A DNA stretch of 54,121 nt from Methanosarcina sp. KYL-1 (GCF_024372725.1 NZ_VOUA01000027.1:1-54121), one strand, 5' to 3'; positions 33,380 through 54,121 are shown, counted from the first letter of the stretch. Translations and numbers: made by a program. Notes: generated from the letters alone by a model not told the origin.

Positions 33380-34567
33380 TTATAAAAAAGCGGGCCTGGA
33401 AAGCGGGGAAGAAAGTTGCATTTCCGGAAGGTAGCGGGGCTGCTTCAGGATCTCTCTTTCCAGAAGGTCACGGGCAAGTTCGAAGTGCTTGAGCCCGATT
33501 TTTCCGCAGTAGAGGATTTTTAAGGTTTCCGCTTCCGAGGGCTGGTTTTGCAAGAAGGAGCGGACTTTTTGAAAGCCGCTCAGGTACACGTAATCCTTGG
33601 TGTAGCCCCCGGGGTGGGAAGTATCGATGAGCCCCCTTTTGACCCGCTGGGCATGGGTGAAGGCTTTTTCCGGGGGGAAATAGCAGACAAGCTCTTCGAA
33701 AATTTTGGAAAATGAAGCTTCGGAGCACATTGCTGCGGCCACGACTCTTGCACTGTATTTTTTAAGGGTTTTGGGGTCAAGGAGTCCGCTCCGGGCTTCG
33801 TTGTAAACCGCAAGGCCTTCTTCGGTTTCCGTGTAGCCGGGAAAGCCGGAGAGAAAGAGCCTTAGTGGCTGGCGTTTCCCGTTTTCAGCCCTGAAGACGT
33901 GGGTGCCGATTTCATGGCAGAGGTAGCGTTTGACCCCGGACCTGGAAAAAAGGGTGGAAAAGTTGATGTAAATTTCACCGCGGGCAGCACTTACGGCTAT
34001 TTTTGCCCCGCCGCCTCCGGTGGGCCTGATTTCCCATTCCAGCCCTAAACGCCGGATTTCGTCCTGAAAAAGCCTGCGGACAGTATCAGGTTCCAGGTTT
34101 TCCTCTTCTTCCTCAGGAGGTTTCAGGCTCTTCAGGTTCTTTCTTGCCTCCGCGAGCAGGGCTTTGGGAGGGCTCCCGTGAAAAGCGGCAAGTTCGGCCC
34201 CAAAATCCGGGGATTCCCTGCGCTTTAAAAGGGCATGGGAATAAAGAAGATAGTCGATTTTCCTGATGTAGTAAGGGGCAAAAACGGAATTTTTGCAGAG
34301 TTCAAGCCTTCCCTTTATCCGCTTCAGCTCCCTGCAGAGGCCTGCGACCTCAGGACCGGGACTCTCGTATTCAAAGATAGGGTCATAGTGTTTTCCGGCG
34401 GCATACGCTTTAAGGAAACGCGCTTTTTCCCTGCCGGAATTTACAGGGTTCAGGTAGCTGAGGATATTTATCTGCACTTCGATCTCGAAGAGGCGCCAGT
34501 CATATGCCAGGACGCAGCTTTCGGATTTCAAATCGGTTTCGTAAACTCTTCTCACCCCAAAACTCAC
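33380..34567 (-). CDS. DUF1704 / tyrosine-carboxypeptidase-like metalloprotease
   Basis: About 395 residues if the GTG at 34567 is the start; the GTG at 34555 is an alternative. The frame is open far upstream, but that part runs antisense through gdhA and is not protein-like. The catalytic motif HEIGTH (zinc H-E-x2-x-H type) lies in YLCHEIGTHVFRAENG, followed by the family's EGLA motif (GYTETEEGLAVYNE) carrying the third ligand. These mark the DUF1704 family, whose animal members remove tyrosine from tubulin. No signal peptide, so cytoplasmic. Substrate in archaea unknown. The start region abuts a repeat array shared with the gdhA promoter. Confidence 0.82.
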   Translation of the reverse strand: MSFGVRRVYETDLKSESCVLAYDWRLFEIEVQINILSYLNPVNSGREKARFLKAYAAGKHYDPIFEYESPGPEVAGLCRELKRIKGRLELCKNSVFAPYYIRKIDYLLYSHALLKRRESPDFGAELAAFHGSPPKALLAEARKNLKSLKPPEEEEENLEPDTVRRLFQDEIRRLGLEWEIRPTGGGGAKIAVSAARGEIYINFSTLFSRSGVKRYLCHEIGTHVFRAENGKRQPLRLFLSGFPGYTETEEGLAVYNEARSGLLDPKTLKKYSARVVAAAMCSEASFSKIFEELVCYFPPEKAFTHAQRVKRGLIDTSHPGGYTKDYVYLSGFQKVRSFLQNQPSEAETLKILYCGKIGLKHFELARDLLEREILKQPRYLPEMQLSSPLSRPAFL

Positions 34568-34648
34568 GTGAAATTTGACCCCGACAAAATTTGAATAACA
34601 TAGTTTAAAAAGTTTTCCGGCAGCAGGGAAAACGGCAATTCGGGCAGC

Positions 34649-34740
34649 ACCTGTTGCAGTACCAATTGCAGTACCAATTGCAGTACCAATTGCAGTAACC
34701 TTGGTAGTACCCATTACAGTACCGCTGCAATACCTATTTA
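34649..34740. repeat. 12-bp repeats in the gdhA upstream region
   Basis: GCAGTACCAATT occurs three times in perfect series, with diverged copies on both sides (GCAGCACCTGTT, ACAGTACCGCTG). It occupies the space where the gdhA promoter should be. Confidence 0.8.
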
Positions 34741-34774
34741 ATGACACAAAACCCATACTCCAATGGGGGTATTG

Positions 34775-36025
34775 ATGAGTTCGGAGCCAAACCTTCTTGA
34801 TGACATAAAGGAGCACGTATGCACCTGTTCTGCAGGCCTCAGTTTTACTCCTGATATCGAAGCGTTCCTGAAAATGCCCATGCGCGAGCTCTTCGTTGCT
34901 CTCCCGATCCACATGGACAACGGCTCGGTCAGGGTCTTTAAGGGTTTTAGGGTCCAGTATAACGAAGCCCTTGGCCCTACAAAAGGCGGGATCCGCTTCC
35001 ACCCGGACGAGACCATTGAGACGATCCGGGCCCTTGCGGCCATTATGACCTGGAAATGCGCCCTGCACAAACTGCCCCTGGGGGGAGCAAAAGGCGGGGT
35101 GGTCTGTAACCCGAAAGAGCTTTCCCACCGGGAACTTGAGCGCCTGAGCCGGGCCTACATCCGGGGGGTCTACCAGGTCATAGGCCCCGATAGGGACGTG
35201 CCTGCCCCTGATGTTTATACAAACCCCCAGGTCATGGCCTGGATGATGGATGAGTACTCGAAACTGGCAGGTAAAAACGTCTTCGGCGTCATTACTGGCA
35301 AGCCCACAAGCCTGGGGGGTTCCGCAGGCAGGTACGATGCAACGGCCCGGGGAGGCTGGTATGCAATAAAAGAAGCTGCCGGGAAGATGGGCCTGGACCT
35401 TAAGGGCGCAACGGTTGCCGTGCAGGGCTTCGGAAATGTGGGGTACCACGCAGCCTACATTGCAAAAAAACATTTTGGGTGCAGGGTCGTTGCGGTCAGC
35501 GACAGCAAAGGCGGAGTCTATGCCGAAGAGGGACTTGACCCTGAAGACGTTTCCGGGCACAAGATTTCCAGCGGGTCGGTGCTCGGCTACCCGGGAGCCA
35601 GAAACATCACCAACGAAGAACTTCTGGAACTGGGAGTGGACATCCTCATCCCGGCTGCCCTGGAAAACGTGATCACAACAGAAAATGCCGGAAGGGTCAC
35701 CCCCCGGATCCTTGCCGAACTTGCAAACGGCCCCACAGCCAGGGAAGCCGACCCCATTCTTTATACAAACGAGGTCCATGTGATCCCGGATATTCTCTGT
35801 AACGGCGGAGGGGTCATTGTTTCCTACTTTGAGATGGTCCAGAACCAGTACAGCATGCAGTGGGACGAGGCCGAAGTCCAGAAACGCCTGGAAAAAAAGA
35901 TGAAAGAAGCGTACCATTCCGTGTTCGATTTCGCAGAAATGAACAACACAGGCATGCGCCAGGCTGCTTATACCCTCGCTGTCAGCAGGGTAGTTGAAGC
36001 CATGCAGCTTCGGGGCTGGATTTAA
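34775..36025 (+). CDS. gdhA: Glutamate dehydrogenase
   Basis: 416 residues from ATG 34775, which has TGGGGGT four bases upstream; an ATG at 34763 lacks a site. Catalyses the reversible oxidative deamination of glutamate to 2-oxoglutarate and ammonia. Glutamate-binding and catalytic segments are [11 protein letters not shown] and [12 protein letters not shown] (catalytic lysine), with [20 protein letters not shown]. The Rossmann coenzyme motif is [19 protein letters not shown], and the acidic or neutral residue that follows ([10 protein letters not shown]) argues for NAD(H) or dual use. Full length. Monocistronic, divergent from the DUF1704 gene. Confidence 0.95.
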
Positions 36026-36074
36026 AGGACACTTCCTTAAAAATCCTGAGACTCTGAAGGGAAAAGGAAAATTG

Positions 36075-36120
36075 AAATCACCGGTTAACACCGGTTAACA
36101 CCAGTTAACACCAGTTAATA
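36075..36120. repeat. 10-bp tandem repeat, four copies
   Basis: ACCGGTTAAC twice, then ACCAGTTAAC and ACCAGTTAAT, ending about 60 bp before the rubredoxin start. Confidence 0.8.
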
Positions 36121-40432: not shown

Positions 40433-42247
40433 ATGTTAATCGGAATTGATGTAGGGGGCACCACCACCGATGCGGTGCTCATCGGGAACGGAGAAGTTTA
40501 CAGTACCGCCAAGGTTGCAACAGAGCCCCAAAACCTCCTGATATCCCTGCTTACTGCCCTTGATGCGGTCAGCGGGGAAATCCCCCCGGAAAGGATCAAA
40601 AGGGTGGTCTTCAGCACAACAGTGATAACAAACCTTATTGCCGAGGGCAAAACCGACCATGTGGCCCTGCTGCTCATCCCGGGCCCGGGCTTAAACCCTG
40701 CAAGTTACAACTTTCCTGACAGCTTTTTCCTGAAAGGGGCAATGGACTACCGGGGAAGGGAAATCCAGGCCTTAGACGAAGCGGAAGTAAGGGAAAATGT
40801 CAGCCGCATCCGGGACCTGGGCTTTTTAAGGGCTGCAGTCGTGAGCAAATTCGGGCAGAGGAACCCTGACCATGAATTCCGGGTTGCAGAAATCCTGGAA
40901 GAGATGCACCCCGAATGTAAAGTAGAACTCGGGCACAGGGTCTCGGGGAAATTGAACTTTCCCAGGCGGGTTGCAAGCACAATGTTTGCCTCGGCCACGA
41001 AAGAAAAGTACCGGGCCTTTGTTGCGGAAATAAAAAAAGCCCTTGCGGAAAGAGACATCAAAGCCCCGGTCTACATCCTGAAGGCCGATGGGGGGACCCT
41101 GCCCCTTGAAAAGTCCACGGAGTTTCCAGTAGAAACAATCTTTTCAGGCCCTGCCGCCAGCACCATCGGGGCCCTGGCTCTCACCCCCGAAGGGCAGACC
41201 TCAGTGGTAGTGGACATCGGAGGGACGACCACCGACCTTGCCCTTATCCTTTCAGGAAAGCCCCTCATGGCTTCCAGAGGCGCAAAACTCGATGCTTTCC
41301 TGACCCAGGTCCGGGCCTTTGCCGTTCGCTCAATAGCAGTGGGAGGAGACAGCGCCGTCAGGGTTGCGGAGGCAGGAGAGGGCAAAAGGACAATCACCGT
41401 CGGCCCGGACAGGGCGGGCCCTGCTTACTGCATGGGAGGGCCGGAACCGACCCCTACGGACGCCCTCCGGGTACTCGGGCTCATTGAAATAGGAGACCCG
41501 GGACGTGCAAAAGAAGCAGTCGCATCCATTGCCTCCCGAATTGCAAAAACCGAAAGCAAAGATGAAGGCAAAGATGAAGGCAAAGATGCAGGCAAAGATG
41601 AAGACAGGTTGGGGGCCGATATTGAAGCCGAGTACGATTATGACACCAGGGCCGAAACCGAAACTGCCTGCCGGATCGTGGACATCGCAACGGAGATGAT
41701 CGCATCTGCTGTCAGGGAGATGTTTCTGGAATGGGAACAGGAACCTGCCTACCGGATCTGGGAAGTGCTGCAGAAGAAAAAAGAAAGGCCTGAAAACGTT
41801 GTGGGCGTCGGAGGGGGAGCAAGAGGCCTGATCGCAGGGGTTGCGGAAAAACTCAACGCAAGGCCCTTGATCCCGGAACACGCTGAAGTAGGAAACGCAA
41901 TAGGGGCCGCCGTTGCAAGGCCTACCCTCACCCTGAACCTGCGCATCGATACCGAGCAGAAGGTGTATTCGGTGGCAGAAGAAGGAGAAATCCTGAGTTT
42001 AAACACAACCGACATCAGCAACTTCAATAAGATGCGCTCCGAGGATGCCGAAGCCCTTGCTGCAAAACTCCTCAGGGAGAGGGCGGAAAGGTTCGGGATT
42101 TCCGAGTATGCAGGAGAAGCCGAAATCACCCACAGCGAGGTCTTCAATGTGGTCAAGGGCTGGCTTACTGCAGGGCGCCTTTTTGATGTGAACATGCAGA
42201 TCCCTGCGGGCCTTATCCCTGAATGGAAGAGGAGGGAAAAGGCATGA
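40433..42247 (+). CDS. Hydantoinase/oxoprolinase family protein (HyuA-like)
   Basis: 604 residues of the ASKHA fold. The phosphate-1 motif IGIDVGGTTTDAVLIGNG is at the N-terminus. The internal SVVVDIGGTTTDLALILSG and VVGVGGGARGLIAGVAEKL complete the ATP-binding signature. Members hydrolyse ATP to open cyclic amides (hydantoins, 5-oxoproline) or carboxylate ketones. The archaeal branch is uncharacterised. Near residues 376-390 is a KDEG-type repeat (GGCAAAGATGAA units, 12 bp, at about 41566-41610). It is coupled by ATGA to the following deacetylase-family gene, which implies a shared pathway. Partner HyuB is absent. Confidence 0.88.
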   Translation: MLIGIDVGGTTTDAVLIGNGEVYSTAKVATEPQNLLISLLTALDAVSGEIPPERIKRVVFSTTVITNLIAEGKTDHVALLLIPGPGLNPASYNFPDSFFLKGAMDYRGREIQALDEAEVRENVSRIRDLGFLRAAVVSKFGQRNPDHEFRVAEILEEMHPECKVELGHRVSGKLNFPRRVASTMFASATKEKYRAFVAEIKKALAERDIKAPVYILKADGGTLPLEKSTEFPVETIFSGPAASTIGALALTPEGQTSVVVDIGGTTTDLALILSGKPLMASRGAKLDAFLTQVRAFAVRSIAVGGDSAVRVAEAGEGKRTITVGPDRAGPAYCMGGPEPTPTDALRVLGLIEIGDPGRAKEAVASIASRIAKTESKDEGKDEGKDAGKDEDRLGADIEAEYDYDTRAETETACRIVDIATEMIASAVREMFLEWEQEPAYRIWEVLQKKKERPENVVGVGGGARGLIAGVAEKLNARPLIPEHAEVGNAIGAAVARPTLTLNLRIDTEQKVYSVAEEGEILSLNTTDISNFNKMRSEDAEALAAKLLRERAERFGISEYAGEAEITHSEVFNVVKGWLTAGRLFDVNMQIPAGLIPEWKRREKA

Positions 42248-43839
42248 AGTTCGGGTTTGGAAAAATTAAGGATGCCTTAAAAGGCGTAGCTGAAAAGGAA
42301 GAAAGAGAAAAAGAAGACGAAGAAGAGAAGAGAGAAAGAGAAATTTCAGAAGCAAGAGAAGTAAAGGAAAAAATGAGCGAGTCCGAACAGGGACCCGGTA
42401 CTATCGAGGAGCTCAATATGGAAGCAAAAGAACCCGTGAAACTGAACGAGCCCGGGTCCGGACCCGAACCCCTGGCCCCTGCAGACCGCACGAAAGCCGA
42501 AAAAACCGGGCTGATCTTCTTCCCGGCCTTTGACTGGGCCATTTCCCCGACCCATCCTGAAAGGGAAGAACGCCTCCTCTATACCCGGGACCAGATCTTT
42601 GAAGAAGGGCTCATGGACCTGCCCCAAATCGCCGAGTACACCCCCCGCCTGGCCGGTTACAAGGACATTGCCAGGGTCCACTTCTGCGTGCCGGACATAA
42701 AAGCCCAGGCAACGACTCCCCACCTTATCGCTGCAGGCAGCTGCCTGGTCCTGGCCGATGCCCTCATGGTGGGAGAGGTCAAAAACGCCTTTGCCCTGGT
42801 CCGCCCGCCAGGGCACCACGCAATGACCGTTGCCCACGGGAACCGGGGTTTCTGCAACATCAACAACGAGGCCATCCTGGTCGAGTACCTGCGCAGGAAG
42901 TACGGGATCCGCAGGATTGCAATCGTGGATACCGACGTCCACCACGGGGACGGGACCCAGGAAATCTTCTATAACGACCCTGACGTGCTTTTCATTTCCT
43001 TTCACCAGGACGGGAGGACGCTCTATCCCGGCTCGGGCTTCATGAATGAGCTGGGAGGCCCAAAGGCCCTGGCCCGCACCATAAACATCCCCCTGCCCCC
43101 GGGAACCCCGGACGAGGGCATCCTCTACGTGCTCGACTCCCTGGTGCTGCCCATCCTCAGGGACTTCAAGCCCGAACTGGTCTTAAACTCGGCAGGGCAG
43201 GACAACCACTACACCGACCCCCTGGCAAACATGCGTTTTTCCGCCCAGGGCTACGCCAGGCTGAACGAGAAACTCGCCCCCGACATGGCCGTGCTTGAAG
43301 GCGGCTATGCCATCCAGAGCGCCCTTCCCTACGTGAATACCGGGATAATCCTGGCCATGGCCGGGCTTGACTACTCCTGTGTCCGGGAACCCGACTACAC
43401 GCCCGGGATGTTCGTCCAGGCCTCAAGGGACCGGAAAGTCCTTGACGAAATCGTCGCAACCCAGCTCGAAAACTGGAAAAACCGGGACTTCCTGGTCGAA
43501 GAGACCGTAAAAGGCCTCGGGGACTTCTACCACCGGAAAAAACAGATCTTCTACGACACCGACATGATCCAGGAGTTCCAGGACGAAACCATAAAAATGT
43601 GTCCCGACTGCCAGGGCTACGTAACAATCGATTCCCACGCCCATAGGAGCATAAACGACACCAGGGTCTTCGGGGTCTCGGTCCCGATCTACGCCTGCAA
43701 AAACTGCCAGGCTGAAGCCCGGGAGGAATATAAAAAGCGCATCCGTGACCCTGTGTATGAGCATGTCTACCTTCAGGACAAGAAAGCGGACGAGTACAGG
43801 GCATACGACATGAGGACAAAAAAGGAAACCGTGTATTGA
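42244..43839 (+). CDS. Histone-deacetylase/acetylpolyamine-amidohydrolase family protein with zinc-ribbon tail
   Basis: 531 residues from ATG 42244, which overlaps the hyuA-like stop (ATGA); GAGGAGGG lies upstream. The first 90 residues are a charged, K/E-rich helical region. The HDAC core shows RPPGHHAMTVAHGNRGFCNINN (catalytic histidines and GFC loop), DTDVHHGDGTQEIFY (zinc D and H) and a later LNSAGQDNHYTDP. The C-terminal 80 residues hold a CPDC...CKNC zinc ribbon, unusual for the family. The enzymes remove acetyl groups from amines. Here a small molecule linked to the HyuA partner, or a protein such as Alba, is possible. Cytoplasmic. Confidence 0.9.
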   Translation: MKFGFGKIKDALKGVAEKEEREKEDEEEKREREISEAREVKEKMSESEQGPGTIEELNMEAKEPVKLNEPGSGPEPLAPADRTKAEKTGLIFFPAFDWAISPTHPEREERLLYTRDQIFEEGLMDLPQIAEYTPRLAGYKDIARVHFCVPDIKAQATTPHLIAAGSCLVLADALMVGEVKNAFALVRPPGHHAMTVAHGNRGFCNINNEAILVEYLRRKYGIRRIAIVDTDVHHGDGTQEIFYNDPDVLFISFHQDGRTLYPGSGFMNELGGPKALARTINIPLPPGTPDEGILYVLDSLVLPILRDFKPELVLNSAGQDNHYTDPLANMRFSAQGYARLNEKLAPDMAVLEGGYAIQSALPYVNTGIILAMAGLDYSCVREPDYTPGMFVQASRDRKVLDEIVATQLENWKNRDFLVEETVKGLGDFYHRKKQIFYDTDMIQEFQDETIKMCPDCQGYVTIDSHAHRSINDTRVFGVSVPIYACKNCQAEAREEYKKRIRDPVYEHVYLQDKKADEYRAYDMRTKKETVY

Positions 43840-45967: not shown

Positions 45968-48130
45968 TTATGTTACATTTGTATCAGTTTCATTGGTGTC
46001 TGTCGTATTGCTTACATTGGTTACATTGGTGCCTGTTACATTGCTCACATTGATTTCATTGGTGTCTGTTGCATTGCTCACATTGGTTGCATTGACTTCT
46101 GTTGCATTGCTTACATTGGTTACATTGATTTCTGTTGCATTGCTTACATTGGTTGCATTGACTTCTGTTTCATTGCTTATATTGGTTACATTGATTTCTG
46201 TTGCATTGCTTACGTTGGTTGCATTCCCATCCGTATCGTTTACAATCGTATCATTCCCAAAACCGCCCGCGGCACCACTTTCATTCATGCCACTTCCATT
46301 CACACCGCTTTCATTCATGCCGCTTTCGTTCCCATTACCGTTCGGATATTCAAGCTGAATGGTGAAAGGAAGCATACCTGTGCTGTTATTTTCAGAAAAT
46401 GTGATAGCTGGGAGGACCGGCCCTGGGGCCATGTATGATAAAATCAGGAATCCGGATATCAAAATGAGCGAAAGGCTGCATGCATAAATTATAATTTTCT
46501 TCATTTTTCGGGACTTTTTCCTTTTTATCTCTTTCAAATAATCCCGGCCAAGCCACATATCAAGTTTCCGGACTTCCGTTTTATTCAATCTCGAAGCAAA
46601 ATCACTGCCTGCAGGACCGTACTCTCCTCCTGTCAGGCCGCCGGTTGTGCCCGCAGCTTTTTCGGGAACCAGGGCTTCAAGCAGGATTCTTCCCCCTTCA
46701 GCCGGAGTGTCCAGGACATTGATGGCGTACTTCAGGAAACCGGTTGTCCTGGAATGGCTCAGATCTTTCAGTCCTTTTTTTACCCCTGCCTCAAAAGCTT
46801 CTTTTCCGCGACGGTTTCCATAAAAAGAGGTGCCTGCACACATCCTGAGCAGAGAGGGATCTTTCGGTTTTTCCCGGGAGAGCTTTTCCAGCAGTAGCAT
46901 AAGTTCGGCAATGAAAGTTTCATAAAGGACTTTATTTTCCAGGAAGTGCCGGTGTATCCTTATTTTCGTATCCCGGTCGTCAAGCCCCCGATAAAGTTCT
47001 ATCAGGAAAGCCTCCAGCCATTTATTTTCAGGCTGCGCTTCCCCGAGTTCCATGATTAAGTCGGCTGCAAGCCCTTTATCGTGGATTATAATGAGTCGGG
47101 AGGTAAGGTGGGTGGTAAAGAGCGCGTCTACAATTGCCTTCAGGGCTTTCGGGTTTTTGCGGTACAGCCCGAAAAAACTGTCCATTGCCCCGGCAGAAGC
47201 GAAGGCATCGATCGTTTCGGAGGGGGAATTTTCAAGCAGGGATTCCAGGATCCTGCCAGAAACCTTGTCCCGGTTTCCGGCATTATTTTGAAGAAGTTTC
47301 CGGAACTCAGGATTTCCCGCAAGCCGGGTGAAACTTCCGTATAAAAGTCCATAAAAGCGTACCGCGTATGAAGCCTGGCCGGGGTCAGGCCGGATTTCGC
47401 CGGAGCCAAGATGGAAATCGGGATCAGGTTCCCCCGGGCTTACAGAAACGTCCGAAGGAGAAGGATAGAGGGAAAGGGCAAAGCTGAGGCCAGTGGAATG
47501 CAGAGGACCTAATTTTGAAATTAAGCTTCCCATAAAGGAAATCCCGTCCGAAAGCCCGGCTGTCCTGACCGAAACCCTCTGCCCGGAGAGGAGTTTTCCT
47601 GCAGGGTATGCCAGGCTTTTTTCAGGGATTCCTACTGCATTGATATCGGTTGCATGAATCTCTTCCAGGTCTCCTGCTTCCCAGAGGCCGAGGACCTGAT
47701 ATTTTAACGTTTCCAGGTTTTCCAAACGGGTTTTTGCCTCCCCGTAAAACCTTTTGATCCAGGCTGTATCAGAAGCAGTAGTAGAAACGGAGGAGGAAGT
47801 ATCAGCAGAAGTATCAGAAGCAGCAGAAGCAGCATAAGTGGGAGTTGAAATGGAAACAGGGGACGATGTGGCCCTGGAAATTATCTCCTCCGGGGCATAG
47901 TTTGCAATGAAGACTGCCCGTTCTTCCCTTCCCATCTTTATTTTTACAAGGAGGCTGCAGCCGAGGAGGATTTCATTCTTCCTGGTCTCAACGTAGAGGG
48001 CGCTTCTTTTAATGTCCAGCTGTTTGGCAAGTTCGGCATATCCTTCAAAGCTCTCATTTCCTGCCAGCAGCTTCCCGCTTGAGTTATATACCCCGAAATC
48101 AGGCCTGAAATCAGAAGCCGAACTGTGCAA
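45968..48130 (-). CDS. Single-pass membrane protein with sequon-rich ectodomain, fourth gene of the tubulin-like operon
   Basis: 720 residues from a TTG at 48130 with GGAGGG upstream, overlapping the GTPase stop by 20 bases. Residues 1-540 look soluble. An N-terminal alpha/beta segment (FGVYNSSGKLLAGNESFEGY) resembles a roadblock/longin-like fold, and a long helical repeat region follows (ETIDAFASAG...LIELYRGLDDRD), perhaps HEAT-like. One membrane helix lies near 544-566 (IIIYACSLSLILISGFLILSYMA), preceded by KRKKSRKMKK, which predicts a cytoplasmic N-terminus. The outside part ends in at least seven 11-residue NVSNATEINVT-type repeats (about 640-720), full of N-x-S/T sequons. I know no named family. 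Confidence 0.8.
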   Translation of the reverse strand: MHSSASDFRPDFGVYNSSGKLLAGNESFEGYAELAKQLDIKRSALYVETRKNEILLGCSLLVKIKMGREERAVFIANYAPEEIISRATSSPVSISTPTYAASAASDTSADTSSSVSTTASDTAWIKRFYGEAKTRLENLETLKYQVLGLWEAGDLEEIHATDINAVGIPEKSLAYPAGKLLSGQRVSVRTAGLSDGISFMGSLISKLGPLHSTGLSFALSLYPSPSDVSVSPGEPDPDFHLGSGEIRPDPGQASYAVRFYGLLYGSFTRLAGNPEFRKLLQNNAGNRDKVSGRILESLLENSPSETIDAFASAGAMDSFFGLYRKNPKALKAIVDALFTTHLTSRLIIIHDKGLAADLIMELGEAQPENKWLEAFLIELYRGLDDRDTKIRIHRHFLENKVLYETFIAELMLLLEKLSREKPKDPSLLRMCAGTSFYGNRRGKEAFEAGVKKGLKDLSHSRTTGFLKYAINVLDTPAEGGRILLEALVPEKAAGTTGGLTGGEYGPAGSDFASRLNKTEVRKLDMWLGRDYLKEIKRKKSRKMKKIIIYACSLSLILISGFLILSYMAPGPVLPAITFSENNSTGMLPFTIQLEYPNGNGNESGMNESGVNGSGMNESGAAGGFGNDTIVNDTDGNATNVSNATEINVTNISNETEVNATNVSNATEINVTNVSNATEVNATNVSNATDTNEINVSNVTGTNVTNVSNTTDTNETDTNVT
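45971..46215. repeat. 33-bp in-frame repeats encoding N-glycosylation sequons
   Basis: Seven or more units of 33 bp, read on the minus strand as NVSNATEINVT with exchanges E/D, I/V and A/V. Most units carry two or three N-x-S/T sites. Confidence 0.9.
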
Positions 48131-49607
48131 TTTCTCCGACCCTCCAGGGATAAATCTGGGTTATCCTCTGCTGTTCTTCTAACGTTTTTCCTCCGTTTGA
48201 AAGCTGGGGAGACAGCGTTGCATCCACGCTGACAGTGTAGAAGTAGATCGGGACTTTCTGCGCCCTGTGCATGATCTCCCTGAAAGTATCCATCTGGCTC
48301 ATGAGTTCGTAGACTTCCTGTTCTATATCCCGGGCATCCTTTGAATCTTCCGGGATTTCGGAGAGCTCTTTGAGTTTATCAATTTTCGTTACCACCAGGG
48401 CGTATGACTTCTCGTTTCCCAGGAGGTCCACAAGCCGGGAATAAAGCCCGAACAGGCGGGTTAGTTCCTTTCTTCCCCCCTGCTGGTAGGAAAGCAGGAA
48501 GTCCCCGTCCACCAGGAAAATGATTTTCCCGGCAGTTTCCATTTTTTTGTAGATGGAGGCAAGAATTAAGTCGTGGAATTCTCCCCTGAGTTTTTCTGCA
48601 TATTCGTTTTTTAACAGTTCCATAAAGCTGATAGTCCCTATCCGCCTGTAAACGGTATTCACATTGAACCGTTCGAGCTTTTCCGTGAGGGAATGGACGG
48701 CTGAGGCGTACTTTTCTGGGTAGAGGTCTTCCGTGTACTCCCCGCTGTAATCAATGAAGGAAAATTCAATCGGGATTGCCCCCCTTTTCCCGGATAACAC
48801 ATACATCGCCATATCAGCGCGGCCGGTACTCTTTGGCATGTTCCCGGTTTCAAGTTCTGCCAGCATTGACTCGATCCTGAGCCTGTTTTCGTTCACTTTT
48901 GAGAGGTTTCCCTGCGTGTCATACGAGAGGATAACTTCCTGGTGCGTACCATGGTGAAAATTCACAAAGTGGTTATACAGGGCAAGCAGGAGCAGGGTCT
49001 TGCCTGACCTTGAAGGCCCGTATACGAAGACCTCGGAAATCCGGATGTCGCGTATAAAGTCAGTCGACTTAAAGAGCGCGAGCACCACCAGAAGGGCTGC
49101 CCCCAGGTTTCCGGGCTCTTCTGACCCGCTTTCGAATAACTGCCTGACTCCTTCGATAGAGAAAGGGTATATTAGTTCCAGCAGCTGGACCAGGATGTAA
49201 ACCGCCAGGGCAAAAAAGAAAATCCTGGACCCTGCCCTTGTGTATCTTACAAGGATATTGAAGCTGTTACTCCTAAGGGCCTGTAAGTCCAGCAGGCCCC
49301 CTGTCACGAGGCCCAGGAGCAGGCCGTTTATGCTAAAAACCTCCGGGTCAAAGGAAAGGGCATAAAGGAAAGGCAAAAAGGCTGCAAACAAAAAGAAACT
49401 TCCTTTCCTCGACTGCTCATGTAAAGCCAGCCCTAAAGCGCTTGCAATAAAAAAAGCCGGCAAAAAACTCAGCAGGAACGCCCCTAACCAGGAGGTATAA
49501 GGAAACCCTATTGCCCTTACAAACCTGAAAAAAAAGAAGGATAAAAGCAGGACAAAAGCTACTGCCAGGAGTTCAAAGAACAGTTTCCTGTTACTGTGGA
49601 TCCTCAT
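48111..49607 (-). CDS. Polytopic membrane GTPase-like protein, third gene of the tubulin-like operon
   Basis: 498 residues. The first 190 contain about five hydrophobic segments (FFELLAVAFVLLLSFFFFRF; WLGAFLLSFLPAFFIASALG; FFLFAAFLPFLYAL; INGLLLGLVTGGLL; IFFFALAVYILVQLLELIY). The soluble C-terminal part is a P-loop NTPase: P-loop GPSRSGKT (197-204), switch II D286-x2-G289 (FSFIDYSGEY) and the G4-like base motif TKID (407-410, ALVVTKIDKL), a variant of NKxD. That set indicates a GTPase. The ATG overlaps the tubulin-like stop (ATGA). Likely partner of the tubulin-like protein at the membrane. Confidence 0.85.
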   Translation of the reverse strand: MRIHSNRKLFFELLAVAFVLLLSFFFFRFVRAIGFPYTSWLGAFLLSFLPAFFIASALGLALHEQSRKGSFFLFAAFLPFLYALSFDPEVFSINGLLLGLVTGGLLDLQALRSNSFNILVRYTRAGSRIFFFALAVYILVQLLELIYPFSIEGVRQLFESGSEEPGNLGAALLVVLALFKSTDFIRDIRISEVFVYGPSRSGKTLLLLALYNHFVNFHHGTHQEVILSYDTQGNLSKVNENRLRIESMLAELETGNMPKSTGRADMAMYVLSGKRGAIPIEFSFIDYSGEYTEDLYPEKYASAVHSLTEKLERFNVNTVYRRIGTISFMELLKNEYAEKLRGEFHDLILASIYKKMETAGKIIFLVDGDFLLSYQQGGRKELTRLFGLYSRLVDLLGNEKSYALVVTKIDKLKELSEIPEDSKDARDIEQEVYELMSQMDTFREIMHRAQKVPIYFYTVSVDATLSPQLSNGGKTLEEQQRITQIYPWRVGEIAQFGF

Positions 49608-52600
49608 TTTTCAAAGCCTCTCCCCTCATTATTCAAATTTTCCCCTTCATTTTTCAGACTTTCTCTTTCTTTTTTCAGACTTTCTCTTTCTTTTTTCAAG
49701 TTTTCCCCCTCATTTTTCAGGCTTTCTCCCTCATTTTTTAGATCCTCATCCTCATTTTTTAGATCCTCATCCTCATTTTTTAGATCCTCATCCTCATTTT
49801 CGAAATTTATCGACTCATTTTTCAGATTCACATTCTCATTTTCAGAATCTTGCGCCTCGTTTTCTAAAGCTGCATCCCACTCATTTTTCGAATAACTTCC
49901 CTCACTTTTCAGCCCCTCTCCCTCATTTTTCAAATGTACTTCCTTTTTTTTCAAAAGCACATCCCCTAGCACATCCTCTTTCTTCAGAGCCTCCCTTATG
50001 TTCTTTTCCTCGTACAATTCGCTAATCCTCGCCCCGACGTTTATCCCTTTCTTTTCCAGGTTTGCAAGTTCCCCTGCTTCCTTAAGGTCAAAAAGGGCTT
50101 TTCGGGTCACGTACTTTCCTTCCTGGAGCTTCAACACGTGGTGCAGCACGTTATCTTTCTTGTTTTCGTATATCTCCCAGAAGCCTCCTCCTGCGGTAAG
50201 GGGAGAGATGTTGTCCAGGAAACCTGCAGATGAAAAGAAGGTAAGGGCAATGTCCCAGGGCTTTGTGTGGTTGTGGGTGGCAAGCTTTGCGTCATTGCTG
50301 TTGCTCAGGGCAAGGATCCCGTTTATCTCGTCTTTGATCGTATCAGCTATGGGTTCGCTTGCAATCCGGCTGGAGATGTACGAGGACCTTGAGGAAACGA
50401 CAAGGGCGGCTTTTCCGAAATTCCAGCGTTCCGTGGTGCTGATCGGGATCATCAGGTTGTGGATCCCGAGTTTATAGCTTTCGATCAGGTTTTTGTACGT
50501 GACCAGGACTTCATCAATGAGCTTGTCAAGTTCCCGCTTCCCGCTCTCGTCCCAGTCAAGGTCCTTCATATCGGAACTCGCGTCAATCAGGGAGAGGATT
50601 TTGGGATTTATGTCCCCGAACTTTGTCAGGTAAAGGCTGCTTAAGGTCTTGCTGCCCGAAGGTTTGATGTCGCTGATCTTCGTAACATCATCATAAAATT
50701 TATCATATTGCCGGTTGAGGTCTCTCCTGTACACAATTGTTTCTTCGGTCAGGCCTTCGAGCTTCTCAAGCATAGCAGAGAGGGTATTTTTTTCCTCCAC
50801 GCTTTCTTCCAGCGCATGGAAGTCCGCCTCAATCGCACCCAGTTTCCCGAAATAGTTTTCCTTTTGCAGGTAGTTCCGGGTAAGGACCTCCCTGAAGAGG
50901 CTTCTTAACTTTGGCCTGTCCCCGGACTTAAACGCCTGGTCGATTTCATCAAAAGCGGGATCTTTTTCGTCCATGCCGGGAAAAACCGAAGCCAGGATAG
51001 TGTTTTTAAGTTCTTCGGACTTTTTGTTCTGGCTTTCACTCAGGAAATTTTCGCGGACAAAAAGCTCAAAAGGAGCGTTTATCTGGATATACTCCTTTCC
51101 CGAAGTTTTGATGTAGTCTTCCATACTCCTTTTCTGCGCTTCAAACTTCCTGAGGACCTTCTTTTTATCCCCTTTTATGGCCCCGACCAGTTTCTCTTTA
51201 AACCCTCCCTTTTTGACCCTGTCGATCCTGTACTCATAATAGTAGTAAAGGGCGATTGATTCCATGAGCCTGGAAAGGACCTGGAGGTCTATTTCGAGTT
51301 CGTGCGAGAGGCTGTCGATTTCTCTCTGGATTTCAGGGACCCCTGCCAGGCGCAGCCAGCTGTCCTTATCCCCGGCTTTGACGTTTCCGGTTTTTAAATT
51401 GCTGATGAAGAAGTCAATTTTTGCTTGCAGGCCCTGCTCATTTTCCTGGATGCTTTTCAGTTTCTTCTTCTGGATAAAGTACTGTTCAAGGTCTCTGTCG
51501 TTATCGTCTAAGGTTTTGTCAACAGCCCTTTCAACCCGGGAGTTAAGCTGCTTCAGGGAATCCTGTTCGGCCTGCTTACTTTCGATCACGGATCTTAGTT
51601 CCAGGCTCTCTTCCTTGAGGGCCCTGGACTTTGCATTCAGGCGGTCAACAGAGGATACGAGCTCCTGTTTGCCTTTCAGGACATTGATAAGCACGCCTCT
51701 TGCTGCTTCTTCCTCGATGCCAGCAACCCGCTTGAAAAGCTTTGCCGTGTCTTCGACACCCAGAAGAGCCTCGGGGATCAGCCTGAACAGCTTCCTGTCG
51801 TTTTCGTCTTTTAATTCGTCCTCCTTTACACTGATTGTGAAAGCTTTTACCTTTGAGATGAATTCCAGCAGGGAATCATAGCTGGTGATTTTTTCGATTC
51901 CTGCATCCGTCGAGATGTTGTTCTGTATGTAAAACTCGACAGCTTCCGGGCTCTGGTAATTGAGAAGTTTACCGATTTCGTTTTTCCAGAGCTTTTCAAC
52001 GTTTCCGTATTCCTTTTTGATAAACTCGGAATCTGCCCTGGTGGGAGGCATCTCCCTGAACCGGTTGAAATTGTCCAGCAGGGCTTTTACGGCCCGGTTG
52101 ATTTCTTTCCTGGAAGCGGTGATATTTTCAAGTTCCAGGATAATTTCCTCAAACTTCTTTTTCAGGCTCTTGAGCTCTTCTACCGGGTACTCGATTACAT
52201 GGGCATCTGCAAAGATAAACGAGGAATACAGGCGTTTTGAGTCGCTGAGGTTGATGTCCCCTTTTTCGATATGGAATAAATTTGTCAGGATGTGAGGGAA
52301 CATGGCGTCGAATTCATGCACTTCCACCCTTGCCTCTTCCCCTTTTTTATAGCCCGTAGGCCCGAGGGATGTGAGAATTACGTAGTTGAAAAGCCTCTCG
52401 TTCAAATTCAGGTATTCGAGCTCGGTAAGTGCAATTGCGGCGTTTAGCTGCTCCTTTTCCCCTTCTTTTGTGGTGGGGATTACTGCAAAGAGCCAGATCT
52501 GGGTAGCCTCTCCCCGGAGAGCCCGGATATACCTGGCAAGGTCGATAAACATCCCCGACCCTGTACCGCCCCCGAGACCGACAATGATTGCCGTTGTCCC

Positions 52601-53152
52601 GATGCTTGGAAAGGTCGGAAACCCGCTTGCCTGCCCCTGGCTCAGAACCTTATAAAAAATTGCTTTGGAAATCGCCCGCCTCCGGTGGACCCCGCCTCCG
52701 AAATCGTCAATCAAAAAGGGGTCAATGGTCCTGAGTTCCTCAAAACTCAGGCCGGAATCCCCCCGGTCGTTCAGCCACCAGGTCTTAACCATGGGGTCCG
52801 ATTTCCTTTCTTTTATCTTTACTGCGACCTCCTGGCTTGCAAGGTCCGAGACCTGGTTTATATTTGCAAGGGCAGGGAGGTAATAGTATTTGTATTCGAT
52901 ATTTCCCCTTGCCCCGATTTCCTGGATCCTGGCCTTAATATCGCTTCTTTGCACCTCATCTTCCACTTTCTCATTTGCGTCCGTGTCCATGGTATAGATC
53001 CGGAGCCTTCTTCCGGAAGCAAGATAATTGCCAAGGATCCAGTCATGGTTGCAGATTTCCCTGCACAGGCGTTTTCCGCAGCCTCCAATCCCCACGATGG
53101 TCAGGTCAGTAGGGAGCTGAAGCGCAGAATAACTGCTTTCCCTTGCGTTCAT
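49604..53152 (-). CDS. Tubulin-like (FtsZ/tubulin superfamily) protein, 1182 residues
   Basis: The N-terminal GTPase domain of the FtsZ/tubulin fold begins LTIVGIGGCGKRLCREIC (18-35). TMDTDANE (54-61) stands where FtsZ has its NTD loop. The signature phosphate loop is GLGGGTGSGMFIDLARYI (192-209, core GGGTGSG at 194-200). Sequence style and length match the Tubulin_2-type proteins of bacteria and archaea rather than FtsZ or CetZ. Residues about 330-850 are dominated by long coiled-coil helices. A further conserved-looking block follows at 900-1060 (STTERWNFGKAALVVSSRSS). The last 110 residues are KNEDEDL-type heptapeptide repeats. Cytoplasmic. Overlaps both neighbours by 4 bases (ATGA). Confidence 0.9.
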   Translation of the reverse strand: MNARESSYSALQLPTDLTIVGIGGCGKRLCREICNHDWILGNYLASGRRLRIYTMDTDANEKVEDEVQRSDIKARIQEIGARGNIEYKYYYLPALANINQVSDLASQEVAVKIKERKSDPMVKTWWLNDRGDSGLSFEELRTIDPFLIDDFGGGVHRRRAISKAIFYKVLSQGQASGFPTFPSIGTTAIIVGLGGGTGSGMFIDLARYIRALRGEATQIWLFAVIPTTKEGEKEQLNAAIALTELEYLNLNERLFNYVILTSLGPTGYKKGEEARVEVHEFDAMFPHILTNLFHIEKGDINLSDSKRLYSSFIFADAHVIEYPVEELKSLKKKFEEIILELENITASRKEINRAVKALLDNFNRFREMPPTRADSEFIKKEYGNVEKLWKNEIGKLLNYQSPEAVEFYIQNNISTDAGIEKITSYDSLLEFISKVKAFTISVKEDELKDENDRKLFRLIPEALLGVEDTAKLFKRVAGIEEEAARGVLINVLKGKQELVSSVDRLNAKSRALKEESLELRSVIESKQAEQDSLKQLNSRVERAVDKTLDDNDRDLEQYFIQKKKLKSIQENEQGLQAKIDFFISNLKTGNVKAGDKDSWLRLAGVPEIQREIDSLSHELEIDLQVLSRLMESIALYYYYEYRIDRVKKGGFKEKLVGAIKGDKKKVLRKFEAQKRSMEDYIKTSGKEYIQINAPFELFVRENFLSESQNKKSEELKNTILASVFPGMDEKDPAFDEIDQAFKSGDRPKLRSLFREVLTRNYLQKENYFGKLGAIEADFHALEESVEEKNTLSAMLEKLEGLTEETIVYRRDLNRQYDKFYDDVTKISDIKPSGSKTLSSLYLTKFGDINPKILSLIDASSDMKDLDWDESGKRELDKLIDEVLVTYKNLIESYKLGIHNLMIPISTTERWNFGKAALVVSSRSSYISSRIASEPIADTIKDEINGILALSNSNDAKLATHNHTKPWDIALTFFSSAGFLDNISPLTAGGGFWEIYENKKDNVLHHVLKLQEGKYVTRKALFDLKEAGELANLEKKGINVGARISELYEEKNIREALKKEDVLGDVLLKKKEVHLKNEGEGLKSEGSYSKNEWDAALENEAQDSENENVNLKNESINFENEDEDLKNEDEDLKNEDEDLKNEGESLKNEGENLKKERESLKKERESLKNEGENLNNEGRGFEK
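49618..49935. repeat. 21-bp in-frame repeats, C-terminal tail of the tubulin-like protein
   Basis: Plus-strand unit CCTCATTTTTTAGATCCTCAT and variants, about 14 copies, strongest at 49725-49800. The product is a seven-residue N-E-D/G-E-D/S-L-K periodic acidic tail. Confidence 0.9.
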
Positions 53153-53901
53153 TCCTCTTCCTCCTCCTCCTCAGAACCGCCGGTCCTTACCCCCAGTATA
53201 AAACTCACAGCCGCAATGGCGAGCCCGATGATAAGATAGCTCCAGTTAAAAGAATTTTCTTCTTTTTTGATCAGGTAGTCCGCAATTTCGTTTGCCTCGG
53301 TAACAAGCCCCTTATCAAACATGTCCTGCAGGTACGCATTAAAAAAAGAGTCGTCGACAAGCGTCATTTTCTGTTCAAACGCCTCGATTTCGGGGACCAC
53401 GATCGAAAACGTGCGCGTATCGCTTTCTTTTATGGGGTTTCCGTCTTCATCGGTCAACCTGATCCTGTAGTGGGCATATCCCGTAAGCTTCGGGTTGTAT
53501 TTTACCAGGGTAAGCTTATCACACTGCTTCACCTCGCTAATTTCAGGCACCTGGCCGTTCAGCAGGACAACGATTTTTCCCTGTCCGCCTTCAACAGGAA
53601 GCACATAGTGGCTTTCATTACTTTGAAGTCCCAGGCCCGTAAAATTATATACCGGCTGGTCTTCAGATTTTATCAGGTCCGTATCAAAATATATAAAATC
53701 GGCAGCACTGGGAATGCTGCTTATCGTCAGGACGCTGCTTATTACCTGCTTTTCCTCAACCTCTGTCGGCAGCTCCCCCTCCACCTGGACCTGAATTGCT
53801 GCTGCAGGCCCCGGAAGCATGAACAAAATAAAAAATAGAATACATAACGAAAATAGAATACATGACGTGGTCACTTTAAAGGCCCTATGACCCGCTTTCA
53901 T
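53149..53901 (-). CDS. Exported single-pass membrane protein with acidic tail, first gene of the tubulin-like operon
   Basis: 250 residues from the ATG at 53901, which has GGGGGGT five bases upstream; the frame reaches a TTG at 53916. An N-terminal signal or anchor (TTSCILFSLCILFFILFMLPGPAAA) is followed by a beta-rich ectodomain (about 30-220) with N-x-T sites. A C-terminal membrane helix (YLIIGLAIAAVSFILGV) then leads to a seven-glutamate cytoplasmic tail. No family recognised. Its stop overlaps the start of the tubulin-like gene (ATGA). Topology puts a short acidic tail inside the cell, where it could touch the tubulin-like protein or GTPase. That is inference. Confidence 0.78.
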   Translation of the reverse strand: MKAGHRAFKVTTSCILFSLCILFFILFMLPGPAAAIQVQVEGELPTEVEEKQVISSVLTISSIPSAADFIYFDTDLIKSEDQPVYNFTGLGLQSNESHYVLPVEGGQGKIVVLLNGQVPEISEVKQCDKLTLVKYNPKLTGYAHYRIRLTDEDGNPIKESDTRTFSIVVPEIEAFEQKMTLVDDSFFNAYLQDMFDKGLVTEANEIADYLIKKEENSFNWSYLIIGLAIAAVSFILGVRTGGSEEEEEEE

Positions 53902-53923
53902 ACTTGTACCCCCCAATCAAAAT

Positions 53924-54121
53924 GATCCTGAAATGATTCTGAAATGATTCTGAAATGATTCTGAAATGATTCTGAAATGATTCTGAAATGGTCTTGAAAT
54001 GGTCTTGAAATGGTCTTGAAATGGTCTTGAAATGGTCTTGAAATGGTCTTGAAATGGTCTTGAAATGGTCTTGAAATGGTCTTGAAATGGTCTTGAAATG
54101 GTCTTGAAATGGTCTTGAAAT
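53924..54121. repeat. 11-bp tandem array, at least 18 copies, upstream of the tubulin-like operon
   Basis: One GATCCTGAAAT, five GATTCTGAAAT and twelve GGTCTTGAAAT, all in perfect register with period 11. The array continues past the right edge. It begins 23 bp upstream of the first ATG of the operon, leaving no room for a normal promoter between. Confidence 0.98.

Follow-up and report, generated by a model that had tools for sequence, protein, structure and literature searches.

Four overlapping genes at the end of a 54,121-nucleotide contig of Methanosarcina sp. KYL-1 (NZ_VOUA01000027.1, positions 1–54121; this whole stretch is called the window below) combine a tubulin-like protein with a membrane GTPase and two further membrane proteins. 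Which family such a set belongs to, whether its genes form a lasting unit and what their products could do together are the questions addressed here. An interpretation made from the DNA alone (the sequence-only reading) had matched the set to a tubulin-superfamily family described by Makarova and Koonin in 2010, namely FtsZl1. Few tubulin relatives have diverged as far as the FtsZl1 proteins, which a 2023 study of the tubulin superfamily left aside as divergent, and a literature search found no experiment on an archaeal FtsZl1 protein. The cassette of the window is real, well conserved and a member of this described family.

The four-gene cassette

The open reading frames D, C, B and A occupy the minus strand from 45968 to 53916 and overlap by ATGA at the D/C and C/B junctions and by 20 bp at B/A; all four were recovered where the sequence-only reading had placed them (Table 1). 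Reading frames were called mechanically, with some miscalls in high-GC loci, and the topology of the proteins was assigned from hydropathy and charge. The genome (about 4.0 Mb, 99.7% complete) contains a single B and a single C according to a genome search. Together, the four genes make up an operon-like cassette that is of the archaeal FtsZl1 type and would be transcribed as a unit.

Table 1. Features of the cassette and of the adjoining repeat array, in window coordinates
Feature	Position	Strand	Remarks
Gene D	53149..53916	-	255 aa from TTG; alternative ATG start 53901
Segments of D	signal-peptide-like about 53818-53874; membrane about 53188-53244	-	From hydropathy
Gene C	49604..53152	-	Tubulin-like, 1182 aa, FtsZl1 / Tubulin_2
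N-terminal tubulin-like nucleotide-binding domain of C	52118..53152	-	Residues 1-345; beta/alpha order of the tubulin fold (predicted), pLDDT 51.9
GGGTGSG nucleotide-binding loop (T4) of C	52553..52573	-	Residues 194-200; four invariant glycines
Charged repeat tail of C	49607..49966	-	Residues 1063-1182 (about 1062-1182), 7-aa units of the LKNEGES kind
Gene B	48111..49607	-	Membrane GTPase, 498 aa
Gene A	45968..48130	-	720 aa, TTG start; cytosolic domain, one helix, outside tail
Outside tail of A	45971..46438	-	30 sequons in 156 residues, largely on a 33-bp repeat (45987-46225)
11-bp direct-repeat array	53920..54121	.	18 copies, units ATTTCAAGACC and ATTTCAGAATC; directly upstream of D, ends the contig

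Distribution, gene order and descent

The distribution of C is patchy: it was found in 20 of 60 relatives, one of these matches being to the low-complexity tail only, and within the genus 12 of 31 genomes have a real match. The family is also present in M. acetivorans. Since many close relatives do without it, the cassette is accessory. Within the Methanosarcinaceae, all loci whose contig extends far enough show the same four genes in the same order, except for a plasmid copy in Methanohalobium. The flanking genes differ between clades, and the main clades of this family share no neighbour beyond the four genes themselves.

A phylum-wide search with Tubulin_2 gave a match over the cut-off in 98 of 393 sampled genomes, most of the weak matches having the ordinary length of FtsZ or CetZ, and 32 further regions were read around the long C genes that it returned. 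With four family profiles, the exact order D-C-B-A was found in 32 of 54 loci. Once loci read twice and truncated loci are removed, it is kept in 30 of 48, and B lies behind C in 43 of these, often with 4-bp overlaps; twelve loci with the exact order took no part in building the profiles. Because the same order recurs in so many genomes, the arrangement is far beyond chance, and the four genes do stay together in related genomes, the co-occurrence for which the sequence-only reading had suggested a search.

The cassette spans methanogen families and haloarchaea. Haloarchaeal loci keep C-B with no D recognizable by the family profiles, some of them having a third protein with a similar start, and the same profiles recognize no B in the two most distant loci. 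A kinase gene follows the cassette in two divergent loci (L098 and L112). Plasmid copies occur in Methanohalobium and Halorubrum, and a plasmid search with C returned three archaeal plasmids that carry relatives; a viral and phage search found none. On the Halorubrum plasmid p117 (L080), a tubulin-like gene, a membrane protein gene and a third gene lie near vWA and Hsp70 genes, a mix that resembles bacterial tubulin/DO-GTPase systems. One genome (G020) contains three C matches on contigs C7, C2 and C14 (L034, L035 and L040), two of which end at contig edges; their neighbours are near-identical, so that either several copies or an assembly artefact may be involved.

Gene identities do not follow the species. 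Threonyl-tRNA synthetase is 90–92% identical to that of the window genome within the genus, 89% in a sister genus (g20) and 76% in another genus (g5). For C, the identity to the window protein is 80–81% in g20, 73–74% in four genomes of the own genus, only 46–50% in another group of genomes of the own genus, and 54–55% in g5. Being at odds with the species, these values indicate that the cassettes within the genus are not all orthologous, which could reflect either transfer or an old duplication followed by loss.

Protein C, a long tubulin relative

The assignment of the 1182-residue protein to the FtsZ/tubulin superfamily has held. C matches Tubulin_2 (PF13809) with 1.1e-12 and 48.3 bits (cut-off 27), and also Tubulin (PF00091) under the cut-off of that family. 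Across 51 homologues, Gly 194, 195, 196 and 198 of the GLGGGTGSG motif are invariant, and the GGxGK start, D56 and others are near-invariant. A profile of the C family compared with PDB sequences ranks TubZ, FtsZ and tubulin on top.

Two AlphaFold models were built from alignments of just four close sequences. The first (residues 1–1062) is too weak at a pLDDT of 38; it contains long helices at 481–546 and 551–588 plus further helices, and Foldseek ranks E. coli FtsZ first (E 8e-3). The second, of the N-terminal residues 1–345, is weak as well: the best Foldseek rows are tubulins mixed with unrelated Rossmann folds, and rows 1–50 of VIA all belong to the tubulin superfamily (Z 8.5–9.5, 188–230 residues aligned, rmsd 3.9–6.4). 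The check for a tubulin fold that had been proposed for this region thus returned tubulin-superfamily matches by Pfam, PDB-sequence profile, Foldseek and VIA. Because the model is weak (pLDDT 52), the call rests mainly on sequence, which carries most of the support for the predicted fold, with the models adding to it loosely.

The DxxD at 449–452 was considered as the T7 catalytic loop and has been reduced to a lead. The Methanosarcinaceae keep it strictly, but other families lack Asp 449, and among the 51 homologues the conservation of Asp 452 reaches only 90%. D452, whose place in the fold is unproven, might be a candidate for the catalytic T7 residue. Roughly a tenth of the homologues lack it, so that polymer-stimulated hydrolysis may not take place. 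A further lead, and no more than that, is F281-D282 (94% and 90%), which looks like the beginning of tubulin helix H7.

Three further tubulin-superfamily genes are present in the window genome, which makes a role of C in division unlikely. With CetZ and the archaeal FtsZ1 and FtsZ2, C shares the tubulin-superfamily nucleotide-binding domain; it differs from them in being about three times longer, in belonging to a dedicated membrane cassette and in its patchy occurrence. The tail of C is coded by a 21-bp tandem repeat (49602–49800), and tails of this type are absent from all 19 other C proteins aligned. Tubulin_2 proteins of Borg elements have likewise gained amino-acid tandem repeats, said to be absent from non-Borg homologues (PMC9879509), whereas C is chromosomal, belongs to a methanogen and has a different repeat unit (7 aa, LKNEGES-like).

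The membrane proteins B, D and A

In B, the membrane helices lie within residues 9–184 and the GTPase domain starts at residue 193. The sequence-only reading had described a five-helix GTPase. Its GTPase part stands, with GPSRSGKT (G1), DYSG (G3) and TKID (G4). By hydropathy, the window protein has four membrane segments, and its relatives usually have five. The core residues of the motifs are invariant in 19 homologues (G197, P198, S201, G202, K203, D286, G289, T407, K408 and D410) and constant from Methanosarcina to loci that are about 20% identical. B matches DO-GTPase2 (PF19993) with 1.1e-5 and 25.7 bits, under the cut-off of 27, and this match recurs in all 19 homologues. Used alone as a query over genome contigs, B found three close loci; profile searches of PDB sequences that started from A, B and D produced no usable match.

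D was correctly read as an exported membrane protein with an acidic tail: a signal-peptide-like segment is followed by one membrane segment and an acidic C-terminus on the cytosolic side. Most methanogen loci have a homologue of D immediately before C. The window protein has no significant Pfam match; 7 of 21 members match DUF7927 weakly, which does not suffice to name a fold.

A has the opposite orientation. Its single membrane segment (residues 546–564, about 46439–46495) precedes the sequon array, as had been described, and the outside tail contains 30 sequons where shuffles of the same residues give 7.9; the array largely coincides with 7.2 copies of the 33-bp tandem repeat. Pfam yields no match. 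In the family of 30 members, the charge around the helix is mostly positive before it and neutral or negative after it. In distant loci, the product of the fourth gene aligns collinearly with 168 columns of the profile of the conserved N-terminal part, at a score of 34.5 against 23.1 for the best of 60 decoys; some counterparts in distant families match Methanosarcina A only weakly. The outside parts have no common sequence. Sequons exceed the shuffled expectation in 21 of 33 of them, and the inside parts hold few. Since relatives with unalignable tails show this excess too, the tail of A is very likely outside and glycosylatable, in line with the glycosylation predicted before. In the haloarchaeal locus L112, the outside part consists of four carboxypeptidase-regulatory-like beta-sandwich domains, in Methanohalobium the fourth gene is annotated as PGF-pre-PGF, and one methanogen family has a fifth gene that encodes a PEGA surface protein.

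The in-frame repeats at 45987–46225 (33 bp) and 49602–49800 (21 bp) provide new tails in two genes of one operon. The position of A downstream of a DO-GTPase-like gene also suggested that it could be a GAP1; its score against archaeal GAP1 was 16.2, under that of the best decoys (up to 23.1), and the idea was dropped.

Relation to FtsZl1 operons

C and its operon belong to FtsZl1 by their sequence features, and the existence of such operons is already published. According to the 2010 paper (PMC2875224), FtsZl1 proteins contain an extended coiled coil and, behind it, a C-terminal domain that is mostly helical, and the GTPases of the operons are typically not membrane-associated in bacteria and membrane-associated in archaea. 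The cassette agrees with this description in the N-terminal FtsZ/tubulin domain with GGGTGSG, in the length of about 1000 residues or more, in a long helical middle as predicted by the weak first model, and in an adjacent P-loop GTPase with a TxKD-type motif that is membrane-bound in archaea and accompanied by further membrane proteins. The recurrence of B behind C fits the match that the sequence-only reading had drawn.

Its claim of two undescribed components was too strong, because the FtsZl1 alignment of the same text already includes M. acetivorans, and the membrane GTPases and further operon families A1–A2 are there as well; D and A may be among these families. Neither D nor an A with a conserved inside and a variable outside appears in the text of the paper. 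The statement of the sequence-only reading that glycosylated proteins replace OmpA is an analogy only. In the operons of the 2010 paper, a vWA gene accompanies the majority of operons and an OmpA-type gene is present in several genomes, both being frequent but not required. The window copy differs in having no vWA, OmpA-type or Ser/Thr kinase gene: no vWA, TerD or OmpA-type partner was recognized in the locus or in the annotation of the following 15 kb on the contig that continues it, where vWA or TerD genes had been anticipated beyond base 54121. What is new here is the precise four-gene unit, the quantified sequon excess and the anatomy of A, that is, a conserved cytosolic domain, one helix and a lineage-dependent outside part, which the present analysis adds.

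Proposed function and alternative explanations

We tentatively propose, with somewhat less than even confidence, that C and B make up a GTP-switched cortical scaffold tied to the surface by D and A. The products of the cassette would then join in one complex across the membrane. As a cytosolic, GTP-binding relative of tubulin with a predicted long helical region, C would assemble into oligomers or filaments under the membrane, and B, as a polytopic membrane GTPase, would hydrolyse GTP and serve as the switch controlling C there. D and A, both single-pass and of opposite orientation, would link the scaffold to the cell surface, D contributing an outside domain of about 190 residues and A a conserved cytosolic domain with a fast-changing, often glycosylatable outside part. 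Such coupling of a cortical scaffold to the envelope could hold, cluster or move surface proteins, or shape the membrane locally. An integrin-like layout is an unlikely extension of this proposal; in it, a constant scaffold and switch (C, B and the cytosolic part of A) would drive lineage-specific, exchangeable surface modules, namely a glycosylated stalk, beta-sandwich repeats, or PGF or PEGA proteins.

The conserved unit in methanogens is now fixed as four genes and is present in Methanosarcina, and M. acetivorans is a species with genetic tools. The proposal predicts a physical connection between a cytoplasmic tubulin relative and surface proteins. Should this hold, archaea would possess a tubulin-based link between cytoskeleton and envelope, which is absent from the literature found for FtsZl1.

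Other explanations draw on the same observations. The cassette could be a DO-GTPase-type system for conflict or defence, in which envelope sensing would trip the GTPase and the tubulin-like protein would assemble as the response. Kaur et al. (2020; PMC7159879) described DO-GTPase systems with tubulins, vWA, Hsp70 and FNIII proteins, and the cassette shares with the DO-GTPase/GAP1-N2 type a membrane-linked, DO-GTPase2-like GTPase beside a tubulin-like gene and variable surface parts. The consistent resemblance of B to DO-GTPase2, the patchy distribution with plasmid copies and discordant gene identities, the Hsp70 and vWA genes near a haloarchaeal copy and the lineage-dependent outside parts speak for this explanation. 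However, B stays under the DO-GTPase2 cut-off, the glutamate after DxxG is lost in some distant B proteins, and membrane helices take the place of the zinc ribbon. Neither GAP1-N2 nor GAP1-M was found in the window genome, GAP1 is nearly absent from the phylum, and A scores against GAP1 below unrelated decoys; since the defining GAP1 is missing, the cassette is not filed under these systems. PADLOC returned just one weak P-loop match. The cassette contains no effector domain and does not lie in a defence island; genes for methanogenesis, a methyltransferase, a histone-deacetylase-like protein and a sensor kinase surround it. We regard a defence role as improbable. As a separate observation, two archaeal genomes of the same phylum contain pairs of a zinc-ribbon DO-GTPase and GAP1-N2 (L081 and L082), with no tubulin-like gene within the short stretch read.

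Membrane remodelling, which Makarova and Koonin themselves proposed for FtsZl1 operons, would have filaments of C together with B deform the membrane, with A and D as cargo or coat. Three membrane proteins next to a tubulin relative suit such a machine, as does the small GTPase ArvA that drives vesicle formation in haloarchaea, though nothing ties ArvA to B. We hold it to be as improbable as the defence role: no coat-like partner was recognized, and the sequences show no membrane deformation, an objection raised likewise by a referee of the 2010 paper. The transport or signalling function that a referee of that paper suggested would make C a non-filamentous GTP sensor and A and D receptors. 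It agrees with the kinase genes behind the cassette in L098 and L112 and with the statement, in the same paper, that the elements needed for filament contacts are not identifiable in the FtsZl1 family. The window cassette adjoins no kinase or transporter gene, and the authors note there that every characterized protein of the superfamily forms filaments. This last alternative appears the least probable.

Surroundings of the locus

In the window genome, the 11-bp array occurs only upstream of D and at the start of contig C36; its presence at both contig ends indicates that it broke the assembly. Read in reverse, C36 is collinear with what precedes D in L047, the closest related locus, and it is therefore taken as the continuation of the window. 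Its first genes, beginning about 1.5 kb from the array, encode a molybdopterin-binding protein, a protein that we infer to be formylmethanofuran-dehydrogenase-like, an iron-sulphur protein and an HdrA-like protein. The cassette is followed, downstream of A, by an oppositely oriented methyltransferase gene, which is also present there in L046–L048. The collinearity of C36 with L047 and the common methyltransferase neighbour thus place the window locus and L046 and L047, which belong to another genus, at the same site.

The neighbourhood also holds a histone-deacetylase-like protein and a sensor kinase. At 33380–36091 on the minus strand, 14 kb from C, a gene encodes a 903-aa protein of the MATCAP family (PF08014, 1e-55), a family named after tubulin tyrosine carboxypeptidase; its proximity to a tubulin relative is probably a coincidence. 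The histone-deacetylase-domain protein (PF00850) is encoded on the plus strand at 42223–43839, where its gene overlaps the end of a hydantoinase-like gene (40433–42247).
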